DNA of 36,608 bases from Longimicrobium sp. (GTDB lineage: Bacteria > Gemmatimonadota > Gemmatimonadetes > Longimicrobiales > Longimicrobiaceae), in NCBI GenBank assembly GCA_036377595.1, contig DASUYB010000097.1:1-36608 (forward strand), read 5' to 3'. Under the pieces are notes generated by a model. The model searched no databases and was not told where the DNA came from. It saw only the letters and a program-made list of their open reading frames with translations. How positions within the stretch are numbered: position 1 is the first letter of the stretch; each line of letters starts with the position of its first letter. The translations under genes and the position numbers were made by a program. Positions 9,420-13,771 of the stretch are shown here, piece by piece.

Positions 9420-9482
9420 TTTCTCGCGGCGAAGCCAGACTTTTCCGGCAGATGTTGGTCGCGCGTACCATCATCTCGTCCG

Positions 9483-9544
9483 AGCCGAAGCCGGTAGTCC
9501 GCGAAGGCGGACTTCGTGTCGTTGTTGCAGCGATTTCAATCGCC
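9483..9544 (+). repeat. Intergenic repeat, AGTCCGCGAAGGCGGACTTC family, left copy
   Basis: This 62-base element has the palindromic core AGTCCGCGAAGGCGGACTTC followed by GTGTCGTTGTTGC. The same 62 bases occur in inverse orientation at 10264-10325 with about ten percent mismatches, so the pair brackets the glycosyltransferase gene. Confidence 0.85.
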
Positions 9545-9562
9545 CCCTTCCCCCCTCCCCGG

Positions 9563-10243
9563 ATGCCGCCGCCGCTCTCCATCATCATCCCCACGCTGAA
9601 CGAGGCGGCGGAGATCGAGGCCGCGCTCGGCGCGCTGCAACCGCTCCGCGCGCGCGGTTGCGAGATCATCGTCGCCGACGGCGGCAGCGCGGATGCGACG
9701 GCGGAGCTCGCGCGCCCGCTCGCCGACCGCGTGCTGGCCGCCGGGTGCGGCCGCGCGCGCCAGCAGAACGCCGGCGCCGCGGTGGCGACGGGTGACGTGC
9801 TCCTCTTCCTCCACGCCGACACGCGCCTGCCGCCGGACGCGGACCGCATCGTGATCGGGGGATTGGAGACGAGCGGCCGCGGGTGGGGCCGCTTCGACGT
9901 GCGGCTGACCGGCCGCCATCCGCTGCTGCGCGCGATCGAGCGGATGATCGGCGTGCGCTCGCGCCTCTCCGGCATCGCCACGGGCGACCAGGCGATCTTC
10001 GCGCGCCGCGACTGGTTCGAGCGCGCGGGCGGCTTCCCCGACATCCCGCTGATGGAAGACGTGGCGCTCTCGAAGGCGCTCAAACGCCTCGGCCCGCCGC
10101 TCTGCCTCCGCGACGTCGTCACCACCTCCAGCCGCCGCTGGGAGCAGCGCGGGGTGATCCGCACGATGCTGCTGATGTGGCGCCTGCGCCTGGAATTCTG
10201 GCTCGGCGCGGATCCCGCCAACCTCGCGGAGAGATACCGGTGA
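9563..10243 (+). CDS. Family 2 glycosyltransferase (TIGR04283-like)
   Basis: This 226-residue GT-A enzyme begins with SIIIPTLNEAAEIEAAL at residues 6-22. The nucleotide-sugar site is seen as VADGGSADAT, the metal-site equivalent of DxD as FLHADTRLP, and the acceptor side as MEDVALSKAL. Its short length, the GRGWGRFDVRL segment and the ending with LRLEFWLGADP are typical of the TIGR04283 group, whose transferred sugar is not known. No transmembrane anchor is obvious. The start is the ATG immediately before PPPLSIIIPT. The gene stands alone between two inverted repeat copies, with no pathway partner next to it. Confidence 0.9.
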   Translation: MPPPLSIIIPTLNEAAEIEAALGALQPLRARGCEIIVADGGSADATAELARPLADRVLAAGCGRARQQNAGAAVATGDVLLFLHADTRLPPDADRIVIGGLETSGRGWGRFDVRLTGRHPLLRAIERMIGVRSRLSGIATGDQAIFARRDWFERAGGFPDIPLMEDVALSKALKRLGPPLCLRDVVTTSSRRWEQRGVIRTMLLMWRLRLEFWLGADPANLAERYR

Positions 10244-12340: not shown

Positions 12341-13771
12341 ATGAACGACACCGACCGCACGATCATGCACCGCAAGCTCAAGAGCCTGGCGCTGGTGGCC
12401 GCCTGCGCCGCCGTCACGCTGGCTGCCTCGCAGTGCGCCTCGTCGTCGCGCAGCGGCGGCCAGGCCGCCGCCGGCGGCGAGGGCGCCGCGCCCGCCGGCG
12501 ACCCGGCCACCGCGCACTGGACGCGCGGGACCACCGCCCGCGACATCGCCGGGTGGACGCGCCGCAACTGCCGCCCGGCGTGGCACTACCAGGAGTGCGT
12601 CGAGAAGGCGCTGGTCTCGTCCATCGACTCCGCGGGGGTCGACAAGGCCATGGGCGCGCTGCTGCTCCTGGCCGGGCAGGACTCCAACATCGCCCGCGAC
12701 GGGCACGTGTTCGCGCACGGGATCGGCATCGCCGCGTACCGCTCGGCCGAGACGGTGGGGCAGACGTTCGCGCTCTGCACGGCCGACTTCCAGTCGGGGT
12801 GCTATCACGGCGTCATCCAGGCCTACTTCGCCGACAAGCGCGGCGGCGAGGCGGGCGTGACGTCGCAGAAGCTGAACGCGCTCTGCCAGCCCTACCGCAG
12901 CGCGTCCGGCCGCTGGCTGCAGTTCCAGTGCGCGCACGGCATCGGGCACGGGGTGATGGCGGTGGAGTCGCACCACCTGCTCCGCGCCCTCGACTCGTGC
13001 GACCTGCTGAACGACACCTTCGAGAAGCAGGCGTGCTGGGGCGGCGCGTTCATGGAGAACGTGGTCAACGCCACGCAGCCGCATCACCAGTCCGTCACGC
13101 AGGTGGCCGACGTCGACGAGCACGCCGGCCACCACGGTGCCGCGAGCGCCCCGGCCGATTCCGCGCAGAAGGGGCACGAGGGCCACGACATGTCGGGCCA
13201 CGAAGGGCACGACATGGCGGGGATGGACCACGGCGAGCACGGCGGCGCCACGGCGTTCAAGGCGCTGGACGCGGAAGACCCGCTCTATCCGTGCAACGTC
13301 GTCAAGGTGCAGCACCGCCACGCCTGCTGGCTGATGCAGACCTCGGCCATCCTCTGGCGCAACAACGGCGACTTCAGGGACGCCGCGGAGAAGTGCGGCA
13401 CGGTGAAGCCCGAGGAGTTGCAGCGCACCTGCTTCATCTCCCTGGGCCGCGACGCCAACTCGTGGGCCAGCGGCAACCGCGAGCGTGCCATCGGGCTGTG
13501 CGGCAGGGCGCCGGACGTGGCGCAGCCGTTCTGCATCATCGGCGTGGTGAAGAACATCGTCGACGTGACGGCGGACGCGAGGGACGGGATAAGCTTCTGC
13601 AGGATGGTGCCGGACAACAGCAAGCCGTCGTGCTACCACGCCGTGGGCCAGGAGATCGGCCTGCTGAACGCCACCGCCGCCGGCCGCGAGCGAGCCTGCC
13701 GCGACGCCGAGGGCTACGTCGGCGAGTGCCGCCGCGGCGCCGGCCTGCCGCTGCTGCCGACGGAGGAGTAG
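12341..13771 (+). CDS. Exported Cys/His-repeat protein with His/Met/Gly-rich insert
   Basis: The 476-residue protein has an N-terminal hydrophobic signal (LALVAACAAVTLAAS) and is presumably exported; the following Cys is not in a perfect lipobox. The body repeats motifs pairing Cys and His with glycine: FAHGIGIAAY, SGCYHGVIQAYF, QCAHGIGHGVM, KQACWGGAFMEN and PSCYHAVGQEIG. Between two repeat sets (about residues 258-303) is a low-complexity segment with GHEGHDMSGHEGHDMAG, which looks able to bind copper or another soft metal. The family is not recognised; similar CxHGxGHG proteins occur in diverse bacteria without known function. ATG at 12341 is chosen for its AGAAGG upstream; ATG at 12365 is possible. 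Confidence 0.78.
   Translation: MNDTDRTIMHRKLKSLALVAACAAVTLAASQCASSSRSGGQAAAGGEGAAPAGDPATAHWTRGTTARDIAGWTRRNCRPAWHYQECVEKALVSSIDSAGVDKAMGALLLLAGQDSNIARDGHVFAHGIGIAAYRSAETVGQTFALCTADFQSGCYHGVIQAYFADKRGGEAGVTSQKLNALCQPYRSASGRWLQFQCAHGIGHGVMAVESHHLLRALDSCDLLNDTFEKQACWGGAFMENVVNATQPHHQSVTQVADVDEHAGHHGAASAPADSAQKGHEGHDMSGHEGHDMAGMDHGEHGGATAFKALDAEDPLYPCNVVKVQHRHACWLMQTSAILWRNNGDFRDAAEKCGTVKPEELQRTCFISLGRDANSWASGNRERAIGLCGRAPDVAQPFCIIGVVKNIVDVTADARDGISFCRMVPDNSKPSCYHAVGQEIGLLNATAAGRERACRDAEGYVGECRRGAGLPLLPTEE

Follow-up and report, generated by a model that had tools for sequence, protein, structure and literature searches.

What is encoded by a gene whose product strings together Cys- and His-bearing repeats, is broken midway by a His-, Met-, Gly- and Asp-rich segment, and matches no described family? 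Such a gene, for a protein of 476 amino acids, lies on the forward strand at positions 12341-13771 (ATG at 12341, stop at 13771) of the window, by which we mean the whole 36,608-nucleotide stretch of Longimicrobium sp. DNA that was analyzed. A sequence-only reading had proposed an exported protein whose repeats may bind metal or heme, interrupted by a segment that resembles copper-binding ones and looks like a fusion or an insertion. The features to which we refer are as follows, and the counts in them are of distinct family members.

12341..13771, forward strand: whole gene, 476 amino acids, with a possible alternative start ATG at 12365.
12341..12442, forward strand: N-terminal export segment, residues 1-34, charged then hydrophobic, with a strict lipobox-like VAAC ending at Cys22 and an imperfect lipobox at Cys32.
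12569..12598, forward strand: Cys pair 77/86, repeat 1 (both Cys in 101, neither in 6, one in 0, of 107 members with letters at both positions).
12701..12727, forward strand: GHVFAHGIG with His122 and His126, repeat 2 (both His in 111/111).
12776..12811, forward strand: Cys pair 146/154 and SGCYHG with His156, repeat 3 (His156 in 111/111; both Cys in 101, neither in 9, one in 1).
12884..12952, forward strand: Cys pair 182/197 and CAHGIGHG with His199 and His203, repeat 4 (all in 111/111).
12998..13060, forward strand: Cys pair 220/232 and GGAFMEN with Glu239 (Glu239 in 110/111).
13076..13276, forward strand: His/Met-rich linker, residues 246-312, with residues 258-301 below pLDDT 50 in the model.
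13172..13216, forward strand: two GHEGHDM copies, residues 278-284 and 286-292, read from the sequence.
13292..13729, forward strand: C-terminal repeats with Cys pairs 318/329, 352/364, 387/398, 420/431, and 453/463, placed by alignment and model.

The sequence AGAAGG lies 7 nt upstream of the ATG at 12341. Because the position of residue 9 (window 12365) is Met in 94 of the 101 alignment rows that have a letter there, where homologue starts were picked by a simple in-house rule, the first 8 residues of the window protein are unsure. The proposal that the protein is exported was supported by a hydrophobic N-terminal stretch in 80 of the 88 family members that start with Met. Eleven of these 88 members, including the window protein (VAAC leading to Cys22), match the strict lipobox pattern. 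Inspection of the DNA upstream of eight close members revealed no common box. Elsewhere in the window, a glycosyltransferase encoded at 9452-10243 scores above the cut-off of TIGR04283, which is named for arsenosugar biosynthesis (E 1.2e-79).

Relatives of the window protein were detected by tblastn in at least 69 of 298 Gemmatimonadota genomes (E <= 0.001), which is a lower bound for a single-protein query with at most five candidates scored per genome. One of these genomes (G264) matches residues 10-50 only and was later dropped, leaving 68 family genomes in the co-occurrence counts given below. The source genome of the window carries three family copies. Two copies also occur within ≈6.6 kb in a genome of the same genus (L124, G286:C246), and two copies stand in tandem with a 137-nt gap at L132 (G247:C21). 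Among sampled Nitrospirota genomes, 18 of 198 match, four of these with distant, shorter forms. A profile scan of genome contigs returned 206 candidate stretches, of which 154 were confirmed and 80, from Gemmatimonadota, Nitrospira, and other Nitrospirales, were used; structure alignments contained the window protein and 55 (A2) or 52 (A3) of these 80. A still more distant member is encoded on a Kitasatospora purpeofusca plasmid (L183:3881-4804). A phage or mobile origin was rejected, since no relative was confirmed in the viral contigs and phages searched and only two plasmid records matched, a Gemmatirosa replicon and the Kitasatospora plasmid.

The window protein matched no Pfam or NCBIfam model up to E 1, and its only PHROG and PDB sequence matches had E values of 0.98 and 1.7, respectively. 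Likewise, a Pfam scan of the 56 A2 members and 10 distant members, and an NCBIfam 20.0 scan of the window protein and the 10 distant members, returned no described family. There was no significant match in Pfam-A, NCBIfam 20.0, PHROGs 4 (window protein only), or PDB sequences; the scattered weak matches reached E 0.022 at best in the PDB and E 0.003 in Pfam, the latter in one member. Tetratricopeptide (TPR) models were set aside as a candidate, as they matched single A2 members at E 0.11 and 0.41 only. By title and abstract, the literature retrieved for motifs such as SGCYHG and HGxGHG contained nothing about such a family, and a search combining Gemmatimonadota, copper, and histidine-rich found nothing.

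Conservation was assessed in 111 distinct members, 92 close and 19 distant. Excluded were two fragments (L100 and L017b), both pieces of L173, the member L174, and rows that did not differ over their last 330 residues. Five His residues, His122, His126, His156, His199, and His203, are invariant in all 111, including distant members with ≈20% identity among themselves. Glu239 is kept in 110 of 111, and Gly129, Gly157, Gly202, and Gly235 are as constant as the His. The Kitasatospora homologue also keeps all five His, with Gln at position 239. The conservation of Cys and His, on which the sequence-only reading had staked its proposal, was thus checked and found, and few residues of the family are better conserved than these. 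The repeated C.HG.GHG-type motifs that it described hold in a looser form (CYHG at 154, GHVFAHGIG at 121), but the exact motif occurs once, at residues 197-204. With the second Cys of each repeat as register point, an alignment read by eye puts both His156 and His199 at +2 and puts His203 at +6, and repeat 2, which has no Cys at that point, fits the same register through His122 and His126. In repeat 3, the +6 position (residue 160) is occupied by Gln in 91 members and by Glu in 15, out of 111. The sole clear exception encountered to five-His constancy is L174 (L174:1203-2246), in which repeats 3 and 4, and with them three of the five His, are missing and the Met/His linker and C-terminal half are retained.

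The Cys residues come and go in pairs, while the His stay. There are nine Cys pairs in the window protein, with partners 8 to 15 residues apart, and the mature part has an even Cys count in 108 of 111 members. Moreover, one pair has alternative positions. Cys121 and Cys150 are both present in 12 of the 111 members and both absent in 99, and neither occurs alone. In 9 of these 12 members (L164-L170, L178, and L179) they replace Cys146 and Cys154, and in the other 3 all four Cys are present; 98 members have only 146/154, and 1 has Cys154 alone. The Kitasatospora homologue likewise has the moved pair, and the neighboring His stay in place. We infer from this pattern that the Cys form disulfides, one of which has relocated, so that the shift from 146/154 to 121/150 would be a natural case of a moved bridge. 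The paired behavior speaks for an oxidizing compartment and against Cys as metal ligands. Given that Cys appear and disappear two at a time and that one pair has moved, with the five His constant, the Cys appear to serve as braces and the His as the site. The earlier proposal that the repeats bind metal or heme is therefore made unlikely as far as Cys ligands are concerned. Its heme part found no specific support, because no two Cys stand three apart in the window protein, so that CxxCH is absent; both Cys ligation and c-type heme were set aside on these grounds. The source genome contains 11 Cytochrom_C matches, all on other contigs.

Metal binding emerges as a likely theme of the protein, as the sequence-only reading had suggested. 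Five-His constancy, paired Cys, the shared register, a rich linker in 97 of 111 members, a confident model, and a hydrophobic N-terminus all favor an extracytoplasmic metal-capture protein (Cu or Zn), ZnuA-like in its working but not a ZnuA, and we put this reading forward tentatively, as one that may well prove wrong. The protein would be exported and probably membrane-anchored in the cell envelope, and would be an alpha-solenoid of successive helical hairpins, with a Cys-Cys bridge holding each hairpin together. At the equal place of the second helix, a His would be presented by repeats 2, 3, and 4 (122, 156, and 199), with a second His one turn on in repeats 2 and 4 (126 and 203) and a Gln or Glu there in repeat 3 (160). 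These five His may meet in space and, joined by Glu239 of the next repeat, could form one metal pocket, for either Cu or Zn. The disordered linker, which would begin just after the Glu239-bearing helix, may collect Cu or Zn with low affinity and hand ions to the pocket or hold them as a buffer. L174 counts against the metal-capture reading, as it lacks three of the five His and still has the Met/His linker. Strict constancy of the five His, Glu239, and the adjacent glycines is also seen more typically in active sites than in storage proteins and, together with the finding that the linker can be absent (14 of 111 members), would suit an envelope metalloenzyme or heme protein. In such a protein, a catalytic metal or heme would be bound by the five His with Glu239, and the linker would serve only as a metal reservoir. 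We consider such an enzyme or heme protein unlikely, as there is no enzyme family or fold match and no CxxCH.

The structure predicted by AlphaFold2 from 56 sequences is nearly all helical and confident (mean pLDDT 83.6, pTM 0.78), and the core alone (residues 66-250) was predicted with a mean pLDDT of 93.4 and pTM of 0.89. Residues 253-256 and 258-301 fall below pLDDT 50, which implies that the linker is disordered in the model of the window protein. Searches of PDB chains by Foldseek and VIA-align gave no clear match. The best Foldseek E values were 0.075 for the whole model and 0.44 for the core. The best VIA-align matches were both to designed proteins (whole model, Z 7.3, rmsd 4.9, 170 residues aligned; core, Z 6.2, rmsd 2.7, 101 aligned), and helical repeats with no known relationship can score above both Z values, according to the guidance given with the tool. 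Kinship with solved HEAT, ARM, or PC-repeat alpha-solenoids was judged from these matches. The core alone had no match at E <= 0.001 in the viral library. We read the predicted fold as a helical-repeat solenoid of no identified family, and the metal-capture reading is weakened by the fact that no known fold supports the pocket. Alpha-solenoids often bind proteins. This property and the weak fold similarity to designed repeats and HEAT-like proteins would suit an envelope protein-binding scaffold, with the His structural (helix packing) and the His-rich linker a flexible spacer. However, it is rare for structural positions to remain His in every member when the surrounding disulfides move, and nothing would oblige a neutral spacer to show His or Met enrichment in 97 of 111 members, which makes a scaffold rather improbable.

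The segment between the repeats was found where the sequence-only reading had placed it, after Cys pair 220/232 and before 318/329, and GHEGHDM does occur twice, at residues 278 and 286, within a His/Met/Gly/Asp-rich stretch. Eleven of the 24 His of the protein lie within the 67 residues 246-312 (hypergeometric p 1.1e-4), and residues 258-303 contain 9 His (p 1.5e-4). Across 112 alignment rows, some of them duplicates, the linker between Cys232 and Cys318 is 22-130 residues long, and 108 of the 112 rows have 3 or more His in it. Nitrospira members mostly have a short HHHH linker, whereas in one group of Gemmatimonadota it takes a Met form, for example HHGMPGMDMP. When a rich linker is defined by at least 3 His, or His plus Met of at least 5, 97 of the 111 distinct members have a rich linker, at a constant place, and 14 have a poor one; all 14 fall among the 19 distant forms. 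The comparison of homologues with and without the insert that had been suggested thus finds that the linker is not special to this gene. On a tree built without the linker columns, with distant members longer than 470 residues trimmed to their last 470, two changes of linker state suffice; the tree is quick, with long branches that meet, and gain and loss are indistinguishable on it. A fusion or local insertion was rejected, as it agrees neither with the constant place of the linker nor with only two changes of state; instead, an old gain, or losses, of the linker within the family is possible. Conservation of linker composition and place, but not of length and sequence, is as expected of a metal-collecting tether, and copper binding by the linker is plausible. 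The linker is not essential to the family, because 14 of 111 members are without a rich one, and this counts against the metal-capture reading. That the protein is a metal sponge only, with a linker that binds surplus copper or zinc for tolerance and a repeat body that merely displays it, is improbable, since conservation is higher for the pocket His than for the linker residues and these His remain in members with a poor linker, even though in some members the linker becomes longer and richer in His/Met, up to L045 (130 residues, 15 His, 10 Met), and L174 lost part of the pocket and kept the linker.

Gene neighborhoods are no help to function. Neighbor genes were called by our own composition rule in flanks of at most ≈6 kb for most loci, often shorter. 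Neighbors vary between lineages, and the commonest neighbor cluster, the family itself apart, occurs at 11 of 97 loci, some of which duplicate one another. A steady metal-gene neighbor was not found across the fetched loci, which counts against the metal-capture reading. The Kitasatospora family gene stands 106 nt before a gene for Caa3_CtaG (E 7.2e-74), an oxidase assembly family linked to copper. A search with this Caa3_CtaG protein (tblastn, E 1e-4) gave no match in the other fetched loci, at a sensitivity that could miss a distant form. Near the Kitasatospora gene there are also a gene for a penicillinase-repressor-type regulator and an M48-type peptidase gene annotated as M56.

Among the 298 Gemmatimonadota genomes, and uncorrected for kinship, the copper chaperone PCuAC occurs in 7 of 68 family genomes compared to 98 of 230 others (p 2.5e-7), ZnuA, with no clear preference, in 41 of 68 compared to 108 of 230 (p 0.07), and Caa3_CtaG more commonly with the family, in 64 of 68 compared to 170 of 230 (p 1.7e-4), where the 64 were counted by eye and the 170 are 234 less 64. 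The rarity of PCuAC, which would count against the metal-capture reading, may reflect mere kinship, as may the Caa3_CtaG excess and the ZnuA pattern; because kinship was uncorrected, none of these co-occurrences was used as evidence of function. We also entertain a wider reading, namely an undescribed envelope metal-trafficking family of at least three phyla, in which His at the same spot of successive repeats would form a metal center fed by a disordered His/Met linker, perhaps replacing PCuAC in copper delivery to respiratory oxidases, in view of the Kitasatospora gene pair; as a whole, this is improbable enough to count as speculation.

The family, common in Gemmatimonadota and also present in Nitrospira, occurs in groups that matter for soils and nitrification, yet the libraries searched contain neither a name nor a model for it. 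A set of five constant His, surrounded by Cys pairs that can move, may represent a new way of building an extracytoplasmic metal site from repeats and, if the protein is a copper or zinc carrier, it would close a gap in the picture of metal supply to envelope enzymes in these bacteria.

By the tests made, the family is neither ZnuA nor Sel1, and nothing files it with CopI or PA4063. The periplasmic copper chaperone PCuAC (PF04314), which has metal-binding features, is a possible functional counterpart only; it shows no sequence match and seldom shares a genome with the family. No Sel1 family stands among the Pfam matches listed up to E 1 for the window protein or the 56 members, so that Sel1 identity was rejected, and HcpC was absent among the fold matches listed for the model. 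Helicobacter HcpB and HcpC (Hcp/Sel1-like) are described as helical-hairpin repeats of 36-38 residues tied by disulfides (PMC3851747), and the window family would resemble them in its predicted helical-hairpin repeats of similar length (≈33-38) and putative disulfide ties; in contrast to the window family, neither an invariant His set nor a His-rich linker is mentioned for Hcp proteins in the excerpted text of that source (PMC3851747). In the periplasmic copper/zinc proteins CopI and PA4063, flexible His- or His/Met-rich segments are reported to bind Cu or Zn (PMC13308877, PMC8561739). The His/Met-rich, flexible linker of the family is like these segments, but CopI and PA4063 have cupredoxin and ferredoxin-like folds, without repeats. 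ZnuA identity was rejected because PF01297 is unmatched by the window protein up to E 1 in Pfam. Unlike ZnuA, moreover, the family has helical repeats and Cys pairs, not a two-lobe binding-protein fold, and no conserved transporter gene was seen beside it. The likeness to ZnuA and the other cluster A-I zinc-binding proteins (PF01297) would instead be one of working, not of membership. As described for ZnuA, three His and a carboxylate or water form the site, which is accompanied by a His-rich loop, 12 to 50 residues long, that is disordered and of low affinity (PMC4542158); the window family would share with these proteins an extracytoplasmic location and a His site combined with a separate, disordered His-rich stretch of variable length.
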